Below, piece after piece: positions 12,344 through 37,752 of a DNA stretch of 64,000 nucleotides; position 1 is the first letter of the stretch; each line of letters starts with the position of its first letter. Below the pieces are notes generated by a model. The model was not told the DNA's origin. It did no database searches and was given only the letters and a program-made list of their open reading frames with translations. A program made the translations under genes and the position numbers. The stretch spans positions 434,001 to 498,000 of the forward strand of contig CAJYDM010000002.1 in assembly GCA_913757435.1 (NCBI GenBank), written 5' to 3'. The DNA is from Syntrophomonas sp. DTU019 (lineage in GTDB: Bacteria; Bacillota; Syntrophomonadia; Syntrophomonadales; Syntrophomonadaceae).

Positions 12344-14335
12344 ATGAAAAAGCGAGTGGGCGTATTTGTGTGCCAGTGCGGCACCAATATTGAAGCCAAT
12401 GTGGATACCGAAAAGGTTGCTGAATACGCCAGAAACCTGCCCGGGGTGGTATATTCGACCACATATAAGTATATGTGCTCAGACCCGGGACAGGAGATGA
12501 TAAGAAACGCGGTCAAAGAACAGCAATTACAGCAAGTGGTGGTGGCCTCTTGTTCACCGCGCATGCATGAGAACACCTTCCGTCGCGCGGTCGAGGCCGG
12601 GGGTTTAAACGGCTACTTGTTCGAGATGGTCAACATCCGCGAACAGGACTCCTGGGTTCATCATGACCGCGGGGAAGCCACCCGCAAAGCCATGGACCTG
12701 GTGCGTATGGGTGTGATGAAGGTCTTAAAGAACAAACCTTTGAATATATCCACCATCCCCATTACCAAGAAAGCCCTGGTGGTGGGGGGAGGCATTGCCG
12801 GGATGCAGACCGCGCTAGACATTGCTGAAGCCGGGCATCCGGTGATACTGGTAGAGAAGGAGGCCTCCATCGGGGGCAAGATGACACAGATCGATAAGAC
12901 CTTTCCCACCATGGACTGCGCCGCCTGAATAGGCACCCCCAAGATGGTTGCTGTGGCGCAGCATCCTAACATCGAACTGATGACCTATAGTGAAGTGGTG
13001 AAGGTTACAGGATATATCGGCAATTTTACCGCCACCATCAAAAAGAAAGCCAAGTACGTGGACTGGGATCTGTGTACCGGTTGCGGCACCTGCTGGGAAA
13101 AATGCCCCAGCAAAAAAATTAAAGATGAATTTGAGATGGATATGGCCAACCGCACCGCCATTCACAAATTGTTCCCGCAGGCAGTGCCCGGTAAGCCCCG
13201 GATCGACGCGGCCAACTGCACCAAACTGACCTCGGGCAAATGCGGCATCTGCGAGAAGCTGTGTCCCACCAAAGCCATTCGTTTTGATGATAAAGACGAA
13301 TTGGTGGATGTGGAAGTAGGGGCTATGGTTATGGCCACCGGTTATGATTTGATCGACTGGCAAAACAGCTATGGCGAATACGGCTACGGCAAATACCCGG
13401 ATGTTATCACCAGCCTGCAGTTTGAGAGGCTGGTCAGTGCGGGCGGGCCTACCACCGGCAAAATCAAAAGGCCTTCAGACGGTAAGGAACCCAAGAAGGT
13501 GGCTTTTATCAAATGCGTGGGTTCGCGTGATGACAGCAAAGGCAAGAGCTACTGCTCGCGGGCCTGCTGCATGTATACCGCCAAGCATGCTTATCAGGTG
13601 AAAGACAAGATCCCCGGCAGTGAAGCTTACGTCTTCTATATGGATGTGCGCACCGGCGGGAAGAATTACGAAGAGTTTTATCAGCGCTCCCTCAACGCAG
13701 GAGCCAAATATATTCGCGGCAGGGTCAGCAAGATCTACCCTAGAGGCGATAAGCTGATACTGAAGTCTGAAGACACCTTGCTGGGTCGTCCCATGGAATT
13801 CGAGGCGGACCTGGTGGTTTTAGCCACTGCCATGGTGCCAGCCCAGAATTCTTTGCAACTGGCCAAGATGATCGGCTTTTCGGTGGACAAAGACGGCTGG
13901 TATCAGGAGGCCCATCCCAAGCTGCAGCCGGTGGAGACATTCGCTGCCGGGGTGTATCTGGCCGGAAGCTGCCAGGGGCCTAAGGATATTCCTGACAGCG
14001 TAGCCCAGGCCAGTGCGGCCGCGGTCAAGGTATGCGGGCTGTTCTCCAAGACCAGGATGGCAGTTGAGCCTATGACTTCGGAGGTAGATATCAGCAAATG
14101 CTCGGGATGCCAACTGTGTGTGCCCATCTGTCCTTATAGCGCCATCTCGATGAAAGAGATCCAGGAGCGGGGCGGACATGGACACGGACCATTTACCCGG
14201 CAGGTAGCCGAGGTCAACAGCAGTCTTTGCCAGGGCTGCGGAGCCTGCTTGCCGGCTTGCCGCACTGCGGCCTTAAACCTAAAAGGGTTTACCGACGAAC
14301 AACTGGTAGCGGAGGTGGATTCACTGTGTCTATAA
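12344..14335 (+). CDS. hdrA: Heterodisulfide reductase subunit A-like flavoprotein, selenocysteine-containing (TGA codon 195)
   Basis: Read through one in-frame TGA (12926-12928), this is a 663-residue HdrA. Order: N-terminal domain with Cys (VFVCQCGTNIE, ASCSPRMHENTF); FAD-binding VVGGGIAGMQTALDIA near 145 and KEASIGGKM; the segment MDCAA-U-IGTPKMV, where HdrA families normally have Cys at the U position; an inserted ferredoxin region (CTGCGTCWEKCP and CGICEKLCP); the rest of the thioredoxin-reductase-like domain (AGSCQGPKDIPDS); and two C-terminal clusters (CSGCQLCVPICP, CQGCGACLPACR). Both halves are in the same frame with no gap. HdrA carries the bifurcating flavin. Selenocysteine HdrA is known from some archaea and bacteria. 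Overlaps the next gene by 10 bp. Confidence 0.92.
12947..12965 (+). promoter_or_regulatory. Candidate bacterial SECIS hairpin of hdrA
   Basis: GTTGCTG (12947-12953) and CAGCATC (12959-12965) pair with one T-T mismatch around loop TGGCG. The loop starts 25 nt after the UGA, within the distance seen for bacterial SECIS elements, and has G at its second position. A competing bulged hairpin (12931-12952) is also possible, so the exact fold is uncertain. Confidence 0.5.
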
Positions 14336-14760
14336 ATGAAGCCAATGCATGGCAGCCTAAAGTAATCGTTTTTGCCTGCAACTGGTGCAGCTATGCGGCT
14401 GCCGATCTAGCCGGCTTAAACCACCTGGAGTACCCGGCCGAGGTTAGAATTATCAGGACTCCCTGTTCAGGCAGAATGGACCCGCTTTTAGTGATGCGGG
14501 CACTGAACCGTGGAGCGGACGGAGTATTGCTCTCGGGGTGACACCCGGGTGAATGCCACTATGGTAGTGGCAATTATTACAACCGGCGCCGGCATACCAT
14601 GATGAAGAGCATAATGGAATATATCGGCATTGAGCCGGAAAGATATCAGACCGCATGGATTTCAGGAGCTGAGGGACCCAAGTTTCAGGAAACCATGAGT
14701 AATTTTGTAGAAGGTGTCAAGAAACTGGGCCCCAATAGAAAGCTGAGGGATGCGCGATGA
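14326..14760 (+). CDS. mvhD: MvhD/FlxD-like [2Fe-2S] electron-transfer subunit, selenocysteine-containing (TGA codon 72)
   Basis: A 144-residue MvhD/FrhD-family subunit that links HdrA to its electron donor. GTG 14326 has GGAGGTG at 8-nt spacing and overlaps the end of hdrA. Motifs: FACNWCSYAAAD (Cys18, Cys21), RTPCSGRMD (Cys47), then LLSG-U-HPGECHYGSGN, where the family has GCHPGDCHY; the TGA at 14539-14541 replaces that Cys. The frame then continues through a normal C-terminus to TGA 14758, overlapping the next ATG. Without readthrough the product would lose half its length and two cluster ligands. The Cys residues bind a [2Fe-2S] cluster at the HdrA interface. Confidence 0.92.
14554..14572 (+). 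promoter_or_regulatory. Candidate bacterial SECIS hairpin of mvhD
   Basis: TGCCACTA (14554-14561) and TAGTGGCA (14565-14572) form a perfect 8-bp stem with loop TGG. The loop lies 20 nt after the UGA, close to the geometry of the E. coli fdhF element, and contains G early in the loop. It is preceded by the palindrome CACCCGGGTG directly after the UGA. Confidence 0.75.
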
Positions 14761-15662
14761 AAGCAATAAGCGATAAAATCAAAACTATTGCTGCCGGGCT
14801 ATTCGACGCAGGTAAAATCGATGTATTCATCGGCTGGGAAGAAGGCAATCCCGATTTTGCCATAAGGCCCTATATAGCCAAGAGCAAAGCAGACCTGGAG
14901 AGAATGGCATTCAATGAATATGCCATCCACAACAGCAGCAACTATCTGCTCAAACTGCGCGACGGGCATGAAAAGATCGGCATAGTGGTCAAAGGCTGCG
15001 ACTCCCGGGGTGTAGTAAGACTCCTGGAAGACAACCAGATCAAACGGGAGCGGCTCTACATCATCGGAGTGTCTTGCCCGGGGATGAAAGATCCCTTGCT
15101 GGCGATAAAAGCCCAATCTGGCCTGCTGCCCCAGCGGGACAGCGATGGGTTAGCGGTTAAATGCCAGAACTGCCTGGTCCCCAACCCGGTGATCTATGAT
15201 GAACTGATCGGCGAAGAGCAGCCCCCGCATATGACGACAGAGCGCTTTGCACAAGTCAAGGCCATTGAGAACATGACCGTTGAGGAACGTTATCAATTCT
15301 TTGAGAAAGAGTTTTCAAAATGCATCAGATGTTATGCCTGCCGCCAGGCTTGCATAGCCTGTGACTGCCGCACCTGCATCTATGATGAGATGCGTCCCCA
15401 GTGGGTGGGACGGGAAAACAGCACATCCGACAATATGATGTACCATTTGGTAAAAGCCCTGCATATGGCGGGACGGTGCATCGAATGCGGGGAATGCGAA
15501 CGGGTTTGCCCGGTCGATATACCTCTGATGCTGATCAACAACAAACTGGCCAAAGATGCCAACCACTTCTTCGGCCCTTATGAAGCAGGAATGAGTTATG
15601 TGGAAGGGCAGAAGCCGGCTTTGAGTGTCTACCGGGAAGACGATCCCGATGACTTCATATAA
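14757..15662 (+). CDS. flxC: FlxC-like iron-sulfur subunit of the Flx-Hdr complex
   Basis: A 301-residue protein. The N-terminal 175 residues resemble the FrhB-like fold (FIGWEEGNPDFAIRPY, VVKGCDSRGVVRLLEDNQI), followed by a Cys-rich region (KCIRCYACRQACIACDCRTC near 183-203) and a second cluster motif RCIECGECERVCPVDIP near 240. At least two [4Fe-4S] clusters are expected. This matches the FlxC-type linker described for FlxABCD-HdrABC complexes of sulfate reducers; symbol by analogy. ATG 14757 overlaps the mvhD stop. Ends 12 bp before flxB. Confidence 0.8.
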   Translation: MKAISDKIKTIAAGLFDAGKIDVFIGWEEGNPDFAIRPYIAKSKADLERMAFNEYAIHNSSNYLLKLRDGHEKIGIVVKGCDSRGVVRLLEDNQIKRERLYIIGVSCPGMKDPLLAIKAQSGLLPQRDSDGLAVKCQNCLVPNPVIYDELIGEEQPPHMTTERFAQVKAIENMTVEERYQFFEKEFSKCIRCYACRQACIACDCRTCIYDEMRPQWVGRENSTSDNMMYHLVKALHMAGRCIECGECERVCPVDIPLMLINNKLAKDANHFFGPYEAGMSYVEGQKPALSVYREDDPDDFI

Positions 15663-15674
15663 GGGGGGAGAAGC

Positions 15675-16694
15675 GTGAAAATACTAGCCAAGGATAAAGT
15701 GCAAGCTTTACTGGATAAAATCGCCCAACAGGCTACTGTGTACGTACCCATGGCAATCGAACAGGGTAGCGGCTTCTACCCCTGGAATGAGGATAATAAA
15801 GAAAAGCCATTATTGCTGGACGCCTTAAATGTCTATAATTCGCCTAAATACGTCGTGTTTCCGCAAACCGAGCGGATGTATGATCTCAAACAACAGGGCC
15901 AGGAACTGAGTATCGACAAAACCTATGAAGATAGCAGCGAACGGGTGATTTTCGGGGTCAGAGCCTGTGATGCCCGGGCTATGCGCAGCTTGGACGATGT
16001 GTTTTTAACCCGGGGCTTTGAGGACAGTTTTTACAAAGCCCGGCGCGACAATGTAACCGTTATCGGCAATGCCTGCTACAATCCGGGAGTTAACTGCTTC
16101 TGCGGGGCTATGGGGGTAGCTATGACCGAGCCGGAGACCGATGTCATCATAAGAGACACCGGTAATGACGGTTACATCTGGGAAGCAAAAACCGAAAAGG
16201 GCGAAAAGCTGACCGCTCTGGTGGCAGAATTCCTGGTCGATAAGGAGCTAAAATACCCGGAGGCCAAATCGTTCACCACTCAAGTGGATTATGAAGGAGT
16301 GGCTGAGAAACTTAAAAGCATGTTCGATCACCCGCTGTGGCAAAAGATGGCTGAACCGTGTGTTAACTGCGGAGCTTGCACCTATATCTGCCCCAGCTGC
16401 CATTGTTTTGACATACAGGTCAAGATGTGGGGAGATTCCGGCTATCGGTTCCGCTGCTGGGACTCCTGCATGTATGCGGAATACTCCGCCGAGGCTGGGG
16501 GAGGCAATCCACGTCCCACCGGAGTGGAACGCTTCCGCCAACGCTTTTTGCACAAACTGGAGTTCTTCAACGAACGCTACGGGTATTCCTTATGCACCGG
16601 CTGCGGGCGCTGCACTATAGTATGCCCGGCTGGGGTGAGGATAACTGATATAATCAATGAGATCAAGGAGGTGGACAGCAGTGTCGAACTGTAA
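15675..16694 (+). CDS. flxB: FlxB-like iron-sulfur subunit (hydrogenase/sulfite-reductase-A type)
   Basis: A 339-residue protein starting at GTG 15675 behind GGGGGGAG. The N-terminal two thirds resemble anaerobic sulfite reductase subunit A / sulfhydrogenase beta-type proteins (VIFGVRACDARAMRSLD, NCFCGAM). The C-terminal third has PCVNCGACTYICPSCHCFD near 225 and SLCTGCGRCTIVCPAGV near 310, for two [4Fe-4S] clusters. In Flx complexes this subunit relays electrons from the flavin subunit FlxA toward HdrA. It overlaps flxA by 14 bp, indicating coupling. Confidence 0.8.
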   Translation: MKILAKDKVQALLDKIAQQATVYVPMAIEQGSGFYPWNEDNKEKPLLLDALNVYNSPKYVVFPQTERMYDLKQQGQELSIDKTYEDSSERVIFGVRACDARAMRSLDDVFLTRGFEDSFYKARRDNVTVIGNACYNPGVNCFCGAMGVAMTEPETDVIIRDTGNDGYIWEAKTEKGEKLTALVAEFLVDKELKYPEAKSFTTQVDYEGVAEKLKSMFDHPLWQKMAEPCVNCGACTYICPSCHCFDIQVKMWGDSGYRFRCWDSCMYAEYSAEAGGGNPRPTGVERFRQRFLHKLEFFNERYGYSLCTGCGRCTIVCPAGVRITDIINEIKEVDSSVEL

Positions 16695-17514
16695 TTGCGA
16701 ACAACCGCTGGTGCCTCACATCGTGGAAGTGATAGACATCGTTGAGGAGACCCCGGATGTGAAGAGCTTTTATGTAAAAAGCGTGGGTGGCGGCCTGCCA
16801 TATCAAGTCATGCCCGGACAGTGTTCCATGCTGTCCCTGCCGGTAGGTGAAGGCATGTTTTCCTGCACCTGGCAGGAAGGACAGGAATACCAGCAGTACG
16901 CCATCAAGAGAGTGGGCCTTTTAACCGAGGAGTTGCACCGAATAGAAGTTGGACAGAAGCTGGGCTTAAGGGGACCCTATGGCAATGGCTTCCCCATCGA
17001 AACCAGCCGGGGCAAGGATATGCTGTTTATTGCCGGAGGCATCGGGCTGGCGCCATTGCGCTCCTTTATCAAGCACTGCTTCAAAAACCGTTCTGATTAT
17101 GGCAAGATCACTATCATTTACGGTTCCAGAAGCTATAACGACCTGTGCTTCAAAAAGGAGTTGTTCGAGGAATGGCCCAGTCAGCCTGATACCGAAGTCC
17201 ATATCACCATAGACAACCCTGAAGAGATCTGGAAAGGTCATGTGGGGTTCGTGCCGGCCTACGTTGAAGAGTTAGCGCCCGACCCGGCGGGCAAGGTATC
17301 AGTAACTTGCGGTCCGCCTATAATGATCAAGTTCGCCCTGCAGTCCTTGCAGAAACTCGGATATCAAGACGAACAGATCGTAACCACCCTGGAGATGCGC
17401 ATGAAATGCGGCATCGGAAAATGCGGGAGGTGCAATATCGGCAGTCAGTACATCTGTCTGGATGGCCCGGTATTCGACCTGACCCAACTGAAACAACTGC
17501 CGCAGGAGTGGTAA
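16681..17514 (+). CDS. flxA: FlxA-like FAD/NAD(P)H oxidoreductase with C-terminal [2Fe-2S] site
   Basis: A 277-residue ferredoxin-NADP-reductase-fold subunit, like PyrK and sulfhydrogenase gamma. N-terminal FAD-binding beta barrel (VMPGQCSMLSLPVGE), NAD-binding domain starting FIAGGIGLAPLRSFI, then TCGPPIMIKF and the C-terminal [2Fe-2S] ligands in MKCGIGKCGRCNIG...YICLDGP. It should oxidise NAD(P)H and feed the complex. GTG 16681 has AAGGAGGTG at 7-nt spacing; the further-upstream in-frame ATG 16657 lacks an RBS. Last gene of the operon; a long GGGGACGG palindrome follows 20 bp later. Confidence 0.88.
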   Translation: MSNCNCEQPLVPHIVEVIDIVEETPDVKSFYVKSVGGGLPYQVMPGQCSMLSLPVGEGMFSCTWQEGQEYQQYAIKRVGLLTEELHRIEVGQKLGLRGPYGNGFPIETSRGKDMLFIAGGIGLAPLRSFIKHCFKNRSDYGKITIIYGSRSYNDLCFKKELFEEWPSQPDTEVHITIDNPEEIWKGHVGFVPAYVEELAPDPAGKVSVTCGPPIMIKFALQSLQKLGYQDEQIVTTLEMRMKCGIGKCGRCNIGSQYICLDGPVFDLTQLKQLPQEW

Positions 17515-17533: not shown

Positions 17534-17600
17534 GGGGACGCGGGGACGGTTCTTCTGCCTGGGGTGGAACCCCAGGCAGAAGAACCGTCCCCGCGTCCCC
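17534..17600. repeat. GGGGACGG palindromic repeat, copy 1
   Basis: A perfect 31-bp inverted repeat (17534-17564 and 17570-17600) with loop TGGAA. Core units GGGGACG and GGGGACGGTTCTTCTGCC recur at 34904 and around the IS at 36021. It lies between flxA and a convergent small gene, so it may act as a bidirectional terminator or mRNA 3' stabiliser, although no T run follows. Confidence 0.9.
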
Positions 17601-17876: not shown

Positions 17877-17904
17877 TTGACAAAGGGTATATATTCACTA
17901 GAAT
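17877..17904 (+). promoter_or_regulatory. Sigma-A-type promoter
   Basis: TTGACA at 17877-17882 and TAGAAT at 17899-17904 with a 16-bp spacer, about 50 bp upstream of the fusion gene start at 17957. Confidence 0.6.
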
Positions 17905-17956
17905 GTATATAGCAGAAACTATTGCACAAATGTGTGCACATTCAAAGGAGGCGCCT

Positions 17957-20641
17957 ATGACCAACCTGCGCAAAGATCTTTTGAACCCTACGCTGAAAGA
18001 GGTCCTGGAAAATTTCTGCCTGGATAAAACCTATACCTTAGGTCAAGGCAGTTACCTGATAGACGATAAAGGCATCCGTTATCTGGATTTCATAGCTCAA
18101 TACGGATCGGTGCCCTTTGGCTACAATCCTGATTTCGTTTGGGATCGGCTGGAAATGGTGCGCCGGCAGAGCATCCCCAGCCTGTGCCAGCCATCCCTGC
18201 CCGCCGAGGCTCTGAAACTGGCCAATCTGCTGGCTGAACTGACGCCTGGCGACCTATGCTATTGTACCTTTTGCCAGAGCGGCACCGAAGCGGTGGAGGC
18301 AGCCATCAAACTGGCCAGATCATCCACCGGCAGGGAATTGATCGTATCCACTACCAACAGTTTTCATGGTAAGACCCTGGGATCCCTGTCTGCAACCGGC
18401 AAAAGCTCTTATCAAGAACCGTTTCGGGCTCCAGCCCCGGGTTTTATAAGCCTGCCTTACAATGATATCGACGCTCTTCGAGAGGTGTTTATAGCCTGTC
18501 AGGGAGAAATCGCGGCTTTTATAGTTGAACCGGTGCAGGGTGAGGGCGGCATTGTCGTGGCCAGACCGGGGTATCTCCGGGAAGTCCAGGATTTGTGCCG
18601 CGAGCATGGAGTAATCTTCATGGTTGATGAGATTCAGACCGGGTTAGGACGGACCGGGCGTTTATTTGCCTGCGAACATGAAGGCATTGAGCCTGATGTC
18701 TTGCTATTGGCCAAGGCCCTGGGTGGCGGACTCTTGCCCTTGGGGGTCTGTATTAGCACTCCTAAGGTGTGGAATGAGGATTTCGGCATGCTGCACAGCT
18801 CCACCTTTGCCAATAACAATGTAACCTGCGCGGTCGGTCAGGCGGTATTGGAAATGCTGCTAATGAACGACCAGGCTCTGATAAAGGACGTGGCCCGTAA
18901 GGGCAGTTATATGCTGGAACAACTGCAGATAATCGCCGGACGCTACCCCGGTGTGATCAAAGAGGTACGCGGGCAGGGGCTTATGATGGGAGTGGAGTTC
19001 AATTCGCTGGAAGACTGCGGTTCCTACGATATGGCTTATCTGGTCGATCAAGGCGGGTTCTCGGCCTTATTAACCGGCTTCCTGCTGAATTGCTATCAGA
19101 TCAGATTGGCGCCATATCTTAATAACTCTATGACGCTGCGTTTGGAGCCTACCCTTACCATTGAAGATGAGGATATCGAGAGAGTCCTAAGGGCCGTGGA
19201 TGACACCTGCCGGATAATGTATTATAAGGATTACGCCAGACTTTACCGCTATCTGATCGGGGATAACAGCCGACCTGGCAGAATCACCAATTATCGGGCC
19301 AAACACCGTAAAACTCAGGCCTCTGAGCTCCGTGCGGGTGAAGCCCCCAGCAAAAGGTTCGCCTTTATAATTCACTATCCCGGACCTGAGGATGTGGTAT
19401 TAAACAATCCTTCGTTCGATACTTATTCGCGCGAGGAGTTGTACCGCTTTATGGAGTGGGAGAGCCGCGCTGCGGAGCCTGGAATGGTATGTCACCTGCC
19501 GGCCTTGCGATCCAAAGACGGCACTGTAGCCGAAGGCTGGCTTATCGGGGTTCCCTATGGCGGACGGGAGATCATGGGTTCATGCCGTGAAGATGCGGTG
19601 GAAGCCATCCGCAATGCGGTAGACATCGGGCGCGAGTTGGGCGCCGGGATCATCGGCCTGGGGGCCTTAACCTCGGTGGTTACCCGCGGCGGACGGTCAG
19701 TCTTGGGCAGGGATGTTGCCATCACCAGTGGCAACAGTTTCACTACTCTGATGGCCATGGAAGCTCTGGCTGCGGGCGCCCAGAAAATGCACATTGATCT
19801 GCAGCAAGCCCGGGGAGCAGTGGTAGGTGCAACCGGTTCCATCGGTCGGGCTTGTGCAGTTATGTTGTCCGAGCAGATCGCCAATATCACCCTACTGGGA
19901 AATCCAGCTCATGTCAGAAGCAGCCATAACCGCCTGAATTCACTGGTTTCCGAACTGTTGAACTGGGCCTGGCAGCGCTGTCAGGAGGGTAATCCGACCG
20001 GATTAGCGGCATGGCTTGCTGAGGCCTTGAACCAGGCTGACCAATTCAGCCTGCCCCTGACTGAGGCTATAAAGCATAACCTGTCTAACGATACGCAGAT
20101 ATCACAGCAGATGTTGCAGGAATGGTGCCAGCAAATGGGCATCTGCTGTCCTTTGCACATCTCGCTGGACATCGAAGCTACCTTGCCGGAATGTCATTTG
20201 GTGGTAGCAGCCAGCAATTCCCCCGAATACTTGATTTTCCCTCACCACCTGCGTTCTGGAGCGGTGGTATGTGATGTAGCTCGTCCGGCTGACGTTTCAC
20301 CGGAGACCATCTCTTCCCGGCGTGACGTCCTGATTTTGGAGGGGGGCTTGGTTCAGCTTCCTGACCAGGTGGCTTTTGGGGCCAATCTGGGCTACCGCGA
20401 AGGGGTCACTCTGGCCTGCCTTTCTGAGACCATACTATTAGCTTTGGAAGGGGATTATCAGGACTACAGCATAGGCAACAATCTCAGCATGACTACTATC
20501 ACTTACCTGCGCGATCTGGCCGCCAAGCACGGTTTTGGCCTGGCGGGGCTGAAGATGGGCAATGATGAATTAAACGATGAGGCTATTGCCCGGATTTACC
20601 AGAATTCACTAATCAGTCTGAAAAGGGTCGGCAGCCTCTAA
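17957..20641 (+). CDS. Fusion: class III aminotransferase + acyl-ACP-reductase-like (AAR) domain
   Basis: An 895-residue cytoplasmic fusion. Residues about 25-430 are a class III PLP aminotransferase (FCQSGTEAVEAAIKLAR, IVEPVQGEGGIVVARPGYL, MVDEIQTGLGRTG, Schiff-base Lys253 in LLLAKALGGGLLPLG). Residues about 465-895 resemble cyanobacterial fatty acyl-ACP reductase: TSGNSFTTLMAMEAL, the nucleotide-binding AVVGATGSIGRA, CDVARPADVS, ILEGGLVQLP and TLACLSETILLALEG, whose Cys821 is in the place of the acyl-accepting Cys. The second domain would reduce an acyl thioester to an aldehyde and the first could aminate it, giving an amine; that product is inference. ATG 17957 follows AAAGGAGGCG. The frame is open upstream, but the promoter lies inside that stretch. 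Confidence 0.85.
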   Translation: MTNLRKDLLNPTLKEVLENFCLDKTYTLGQGSYLIDDKGIRYLDFIAQYGSVPFGYNPDFVWDRLEMVRRQSIPSLCQPSLPAEALKLANLLAELTPGDLCYCTFCQSGTEAVEAAIKLARSSTGRELIVSTTNSFHGKTLGSLSATGKSSYQEPFRAPAPGFISLPYNDIDALREVFIACQGEIAAFIVEPVQGEGGIVVARPGYLREVQDLCREHGVIFMVDEIQTGLGRTGRLFACEHEGIEPDVLLLAKALGGGLLPLGVCISTPKVWNEDFGMLHSSTFANNNVTCAVGQAVLEMLLMNDQALIKDVARKGSYMLEQLQIIAGRYPGVIKEVRGQGLMMGVEFNSLEDCGSYDMAYLVDQGGFSALLTGFLLNCYQIRLAPYLNNSMTLRLEPTLTIEDEDIERVLRAVDDTCRIMYYKDYARLYRYLIGDNSRPGRITNYRAKHRKTQASELRAGEAPSKRFAFIIHYPGPEDVVLNNPSFDTYSREELYRFMEWESRAAEPGMVCHLPALRSKDGTVAEGWLIGVPYGGREIMGSCREDAVEAIRNAVDIGRELGAGIIGLGALTSVVTRGGRSVLGRDVAITSGNSFTTLMAMEALAAGAQKMHIDLQQARGAVVGATGSIGRACAVMLSEQIANITLLGNPAHVRSSHNRLNSLVSELLNWAWQRCQEGNPTGLAAWLAEALNQADQFSLPLTEAIKHNLSNDTQISQQMLQEWCQQMGICCPLHISLDIEATLPECHLVVAASNSPEYLIFPHHLRSGAVVCDVARPADVSPETISSRRDVLILEGGLVQLPDQVAFGANLGYREGVTLACLSETILLALEGDYQDYSIGNNLSMTTITYLRDLAAKHGFGLAGLKMGNDELNDEAIARIYQNSLISLKRVGSL

Positions 20642-20731: not shown

Positions 20732-21151
20732 GTGGACCTAACAGAGATAGTAATTAAAGAGAATGGCAAATGGTATTTCGGTCAAGCCGAGATGTTTCGA
20801 CGCAACATTGTAAATATTCTGGCCCAGCATATTGAGAAGGGCGAAGACGGCAGCTATGGCATACGCCTGGGCAACGATTACAACCCATTGACGGTGGAAG
20901 ACGTGCCGTTTTTGGCCAGCGGATACTCTGAAGAAGAGGATGGCAGAATCAAGCTCACCTTTCACGATTTACAGGAAATGTACCTGGAGGGGGAGATACA
21001 ACTGTTCTTAAAAGGGGATGTGCCCTATGTCTCGTTTCGCTGGGAGGCCGATACCCGACTGAGCCGCGGGGTATACTGGAAACTGAGCCAGTATTTCACT
21101 TTTCGGGGTGATGAGGTTTTCATCAGCATTCCCGCCATGCAGAAATCGTAA
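20732..21151 (+). CDS. DUF1285-like protein
   Basis: A 139-residue protein with beta-rich sequence. It starts GKWYFGQAEMFRRNIVNILAQHI and has DGSYGIRLGNDYNPLTVEDVPF; the combination of GxWYF, an Arg pair before a helix, and VEDxPF is the pattern of DUF1285 proteins. No known reaction. GTG 20732 follows AAGGGGGTAGGG. No signal peptide or membrane helix. It stands between the fusion gene and a convergent SRPBCC gene; no co-operon partner. Confidence 0.65.
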   Translation: MDLTEIVIKENGKWYFGQAEMFRRNIVNILAQHIEKGEDGSYGIRLGNDYNPLTVEDVPFLASGYSEEEDGRIKLTFHDLQEMYLEGEIQLFLKGDVPYVSFRWEADTRLSRGVYWKLSQYFTFRGDEVFISIPAMQKS

Positions 21152-34903: not shown

Positions 34904-34970
34904 GGCATGGGGACGGTTCTTTTGCCTGTTTTCCCAGGGGAAAACCAGGCAAAAGAACCGTCCCCATGCC
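34904..34970. repeat. GGGGACGG palindromic repeat, copy 2
   Basis: Left arm GGCATGGGGACGGTTCTTTT then GCCTG (34904-34928), right arm ending CCCCATGCC (34970), with an inner CCC/GGG stem and small loop. Nearly the same unit as the one split by the IS at 36021. It lies between lpdA and lplA, which run in the same direction. Confidence 0.9.
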
Positions 34971-37646: not shown

Positions 37647-37752
37647 ACGGTTCTTTTGCCTGGTTTTCCCTTGGGAAACCAGGCAAAAGAACCGTCCCCA
37701 TGCCTGAAAGAACCGTCCCCATGCCTGTGCCTCCCCTGCCTCCTGCCCTGCC

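Follow-up and report, generated by a model that had tools for sequence, protein, structure and literature searches.

An aminotransferase-thioester reductase fusion of the TamH type, near-universal in Syntrophomonadia and matched by a split gene pair elsewhere in the phylum

Several described enzymes resemble all or part of the Syntrophomonas protein reported here. The cyanobacterial long-chain acyl-ACP reductase (AAR; 6JZU, 6JZY), which hands its aldehyde to ADO for conversion to alkanes, has the thioester reductase (TR) fold and the catalytic cysteine, but it is a stand-alone protein without an aminotransferase (AT) domain and without the insert described below. Putrescine aminotransferase (YgjG/PatA; 4UOX) is likewise a class III AT, with terminal amines or aldehydes as substrates; however, it has no reductase domain, and the Syntrophomonas protein scores far below that family's cut-off. 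Both domains are joined in PigE of the prodigiosin pathway (4PPM), which performs the same two-step chemistry in the reverse order, TR-AT, on a functionalized 3-acetyloctanoyl thioester (PMC8341465). The AT-TR order is found in PtTamH of Pseudoalteromonas tunicata, encoded in the tambjamine YP1 cluster and assayed in 2022 (ACS Catal; PMC9594044), whose N-terminal transaminase carries K340 and whose C-terminal thioester reductase carries G707xxG710xxG713 and C887. Together with its partner TamA, PtTamH takes a C12 acid through C12-ACP and the C12 aldehyde to the C12 amine, using NADH and L-Glu, whereas C12-CoA is not a substrate (PMC9594044).

The window analyzed here, a stretch of 64,000 nucleotides from Syntrophomonas sp. 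DTU019, encodes an AT and a TR domain in one chain (Table 1). The open reading frame is a genuine gene, as judged by its start, its Shine-Dalgarno sequence and its domain matches. The N-terminal half matches Aminotran_3 (PF00202) at residues 26-414 with 297.6 bits (E 1.5e-88), well past the gathering cut-off of 30.5, and among solved structures it is about equally close to PigE (4ppm, 2.1e-84) and putrescine aminotransferase (4uox, 1.4e-83). Lys253 is invariant in 23 aligned fusions, which bears out the original prediction of a PLP aminotransferase built around this residue.

The NCBIfam PigE model recognizes the C-terminal half through its TR portion (E 1e-45), and this half also matches the solved structures of PigE (4ppm) and AAR (6jzq/6jzu); its match to the acyl-ACP reductase model TIGR04058 (E 6.7e-19) reaches 68 bits, below the curated cut-off of 449.7. 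GATGSIGRA and Cys821 lie where they had been predicted, and the proposed comparison with cyanobacterial AAR places Cys821 on the catalytic Cys294 of the Synechococcus enzyme (SeAAR). This cysteine is kept in all 28 TRs compared, whether fused, stand-alone or from PigE. The original prediction would have fallen had Cys821 been missing from homologs, leaving the C-terminal half non-catalytic. Such a half, non-catalytic or regulatory beside an active aminotransferase, would fit the low TIGR04058 score, yet it is barely credible given the invariant cysteine, the conserved GxxGxxG of fused, stand-alone and PigE TRs, and the strong co-occurrence of TR with AT genes described below.

Table 1. Features of the fusion locus (window coordinates) and of the stand-alone TR locus (coordinates of the loci named)
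Feature	Coordinates	Strand	Basis or remarks
Near-perfect GC-rich hairpin, stem about 30 bp	17534..17600	.	Between the asrB-like gene and the fusion
Promoter-like site, TTGACA-16-TAGAAT	17877..17904	+	Sigma-70-like; consensus match only (11/12), the regional total of promoter-like sites near the fusion being not above chance
Shine-Dalgarno sequence AAAGGAGG	17944..17951	+	Strong; read directly from the sequence, 5' of ATG 17957
AT-TR fusion open reading frame	17957..20641	+	894 aa; ATG start at 17957, stop at 20641
Class III AT domain, residues 1-440	17957..19276	+	PF00202, 4ppm and 4uox matches
Lys253, PLP Schiff-base lysine	18713..18715	+	Invariant in aligned fusions
TR domain, residues 463-884 (about)	19343..20608	+	PigE, TIGR04058 and PDB matches; alignment
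GATGSIG nucleotide-binding motif, residues 624-630	19826..19846	+	Alignment; G624/G627/G630 of GxxGxxG; GATGSIGRA from 624
Helical insert, about residues 651-735	19907..20161	+	In AT-TR fusions; absent from stand-alone TRs and PigE
Cys821, acyl-thioester cysteine	20417..20419	+	Invariant in aligned TRs; aligns with SeAAR Cys294
Conserved downstream gene, 139 aa, GTG start	20732..21151	+	90 bp 3' of the fusion; weakly DUF1285_N-like
dusB-HTH-c18-TR-greA-lysS run	L049 12888-16591; L050 to 13158; L051, L055, L057, L061, L062		

The best NCBIfam match of the whole protein is the PigE model NF053554, but at 537 bits it lies below the cut-off of 850, and the domain order is AT-TR rather than TR-AT. 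PigE also lacks the insert and forms a separate clade in both domain trees. In contrast, PtTamH shares the domain order, the arrangement of PLP lysine, GxxGxxG and acyl cysteine, and an AAR-like TR. The spacings calculated from its published residue numbers are 367 from lysine to first glycine and 180 from that glycine to the cysteine, compared with 371 and 197 in the Syntrophomonas fusion. With an N-terminal AT and a C-terminal TR in one chain, K253, GxxGxxG, C821 and the enlarged spacing, the Syntrophomonas protein is, by its architecture and motifs, a TamH-type AT-TR fusion, and the enzyme design is thus a known one. The original prediction knew of no characterized enzyme with this domain order and had held that a known pathway already using the fusion would count against it; PtTamH is such an enzyme and supplies such a pathway (PMC9594044). 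The two differ in setting: the PtTamH gene belongs to a secondary-metabolite cluster that also encodes TamA, the enzyme's own ANL-ACP partner, while the Syntrophomonas fusion is a conserved lineage gene outside any such cluster.

The enlarged spacing reflects a helical insert. From the first glycine of GATGSIG to the acyl cysteine, the other AT-TR fusions measured span 173-222 residues, with the sole exception of one (locus L089) at 140, compared with 132-133 in stand-alone TRs, 133-135 in PigE and 132 in SeAAR (by alignment). Judging by its spacing of 180, PtTamH probably has the insert too. After the insertless fusion in L089 (9639-12368) comes a gene for a stand-alone PigE-like aminotransferase. 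In an AlphaFold model of the whole chain, which was built from 7 sequences and is poor overall (mean pLDDT 48.7), the insert helices are among the few confident parts, with pLDDT of about 81-91 over most of their length. The insert may help to dock the AT and TR domains.

What is new here is the distribution of the fusion. It is a near-universal, single-copy gene in the class Syntrophomonadia and recurs across the phylum. A TR is present in 54 of the 63 Syntrophomonadia genomes, once in each, and almost all of these copies have reading frames of about 900 aa; those shorter frames that could be located lie at the end of a contig or are incomplete. The five genomes of one family, f2, all lack the TR. 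Across the phylum, 239 of 398 genomes have a TR, which is fused in about 53 and in most others is a separate gene of about 370 aa. A PigE-like AT (query from genome G060) was found in 212 of the 398. Sorting fused from stand-alone TRs by E-value is imperfect (G343 is truly fused, and G442 is stand-alone by frame length), but these errors leave the conclusion unchanged. Among non-fused genomes, 156 carry both TR and AT, 30 TR only, 3 AT only and 156 neither, a strong co-occurrence (Fisher 4e-62, with fused genomes left out and shared ancestry ignored) that extends across many families of the phylum. Each of the three genomes with an AT alone comes from a family (f28, f74 or f118) in which the remaining members do have a TR.

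Gene order relates the fused and separate forms. Around the stand-alone TR the order is conserved: dusB, a small HTH gene and c18 precede it, and greA and then lysS come after it. In genome G131 the fusion comes after the HTH gene and c18 (L093), and in G259 it adjoins c18, with dusB and lysS on either side (L104). Given that the fusion occupies the slot of the stand-alone TR in these two loci, fused and stand-alone TRs are positional equivalents. The separate AT can also be close by: in family f64 it is encoded about 6-8 kb from the TR, 3' of lysS (L087, L088 and L091). The c18 product, of about 300 aa with 60 invariant residues, is near-universal in the class and had no match in PDB or Pfam. 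We considered it as a pathway partner and rejected it, as it is not strictly coupled to the fusion, being present also in family f2, where the fusion is absent.

In the AT tree, all fused ATs form one clade (100/100); in the TR tree, fused TRs also form one clade (99/91), with main subgroups matching those of the AT tree and with PigE apart. Two fusions (L080 and L081) sit at the ends of very long branches, which leaves their exact position uncertain. The simplest reading of these trees is that a single AT-TR fusion was inherited as a unit and later passed to Proteobacteria, with Rhodobacterales, Paraburkholderia, Leisingera and Photobacterium as receivers, and that the TR-AT arrangement of PigE arose in an independent fusion event.

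We consider the Syntrophomonas fusion to be a bifunctional TamH-type enzyme converting an acyl thioester to a primary amine, the fused form of a two-gene pathway found elsewhere in the phylum, with a probability of roughly 0.78. The acyl group would arrive on a phosphopantetheine carrier, most likely ACP; the TR domain would transfer it to Cys821 and reduce it with NAD(P)H to the aldehyde. This aldehyde would then be handed to the N-terminal PLP site at Lys253 and aminated at the expense of an amino acid, which is Glu in TamH and has been proposed to be ornithine or arginine in PigE. No acyl-activating, ACP or ANL-ACP partner gene was found among the scanned genes around the Syntrophomonas fusion; we therefore infer general acyl-ACP as the substrate. 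Homology, the invariant residues and PtTamH all favor the predicted route from acyl thioester through aldehyde to primary amine, but the failure of PtTamH to use C12-CoA makes acyl-ACP the likelier of the two donors originally proposed.

Proteobacterial relatives lend support to the proposed mechanism, since they carry the ACP and acyl-activating parts that it needs. The protein of Paraburkholderia phymatum (L085, 7414-10356) is apparently ACP-AT-TR, its ACP-like N-terminal segment showing a DSIS motif read by eye, and an AMP ligase is encoded after it. In Leisingera (L080, 7594-11781) the ligase forms the C-terminus of the same chain, giving AT-TR-AMP ligase, and in Photobacterium (L081) the fusion lies amid ketosynthases and an ACP.

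An alternative concerns the substrate of the enzyme. This might be a short or functionalized thioester, either CoA- or ACP-bound, with an amino-acyl, dicarboxylic or hydroxyacyl group, and the product a polyamine-like compound or a cofactor building block instead of a fatty amine. The TR fold is related to that of glutamyl-tRNA reductase, which likewise has a class III PLP enzyme as its partner, the AT domain is about as close to putrescine aminotransferase as to PigE, and PigE's own substrate is functionalized. Against this, the strongest homology is to enzymes that handle acyl chains of medium or long length (PigE and SeAAR, with TamH by architecture), and bacterial relatives in gene clusters sit beside acyl ligases and ketosynthases, so we regard this alternative as unlikely, though the best placed of those considered. 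Operation in reverse, with an amine deaminated to the aldehyde and this oxidized to an acyl thioester that enters fatty-acid oxidation, is much less probable. Both half-reactions are reversible in principle, and the class does include fatty-acid-oxidizing syntrophs such as Syntrophomonas; but the TR/AT pair also occurs in many other families of the phylum, the fusion gene is not adjacent to beta-oxidation genes, and the characterized relatives work in the biosynthetic direction.

The lineage-wide conservation of the fusion is unexpected for a design known from one antibiotic pathway. The distribution of the fusion and its split counterpart point to a conserved amine-forming step hidden behind generic annotations. 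More tentatively, and at somewhat less than even odds, much of the phylum may possess an unrecognized, conserved pathway from acyl-ACP to an alkyl (fatty) amine or aminolipid, encoded by two genes (the PigE-like AT and the stand-alone AAR-like TR close to greA and lysS) or, after one ancient fusion, by a gene for one chain. In that case tambjamine biosynthesis would have branched off from it, and the cells would hold an amine of undescribed role; Syntrophomonas wolfei and its relatives are predicted to make a primary alkylamine or a lipid derived from one. A literature search on Syntrophomonas plasmalogens and Firmicutes acyl-ACP reductases returned nothing relevant. These enzymes also provide many naturally occurring candidates for acyl-to-amine biocatalysis, some with a built-in carrier protein or ligase.

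The fusion gene had been described as a lone gene, which may not hold. A same-strand gene of 139 aa follows it closely; its family occurs in 30 examined loci and stands directly 3' of the fusion in most Syntrophomonadia fusion loci. The product matches PF06938 below the cut-off (E 6.5e-4). This gene may be co-transcribed with the fusion, as a possible operon partner. The remaining Syntrophomonadia context, with asr/hdr-like genes 5' and radical SAM, VWA and AAA genes 3', was considered for functional partners and judged unrelated, because these neighbors vary between relatives while the 139-aa gene stays. Just 5' of the fusion, the window encodes HdrA-like, AsrA-like and AsrB-like iron-sulfur/flavin subunits (12944-17514), a run of genes found in the same place in many relatives.

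In the three Rhodobacterales fusion loci (fusions at L078 7765-10470, L079 7801-10389 and L086 7759-10413), a gene for a small secreted protein with a VPLPA-CTERM-type tail adjoins the fusion in every case (L078 6278-7012, L079 10530-11240 and L086 10558-11250), and in Rhodovulum the exosortase XrtD is also encoded near the fusion. The amine might have a role in protein sorting in these species, or the proximity may be due to chance, such secreted proteins being numerous.

An Rfam search near the fusion gene gave no match. The hairpin between the asrB-like gene and the fusion is one of several REP-like copies of a dispersed palindromic repeat, GGGGACGGTTCTTCTG, which recurs in the window at 34909-34965 and 37684-37720; matches to the hairpin arm number 7 in the window, compared with 0.5 expected.
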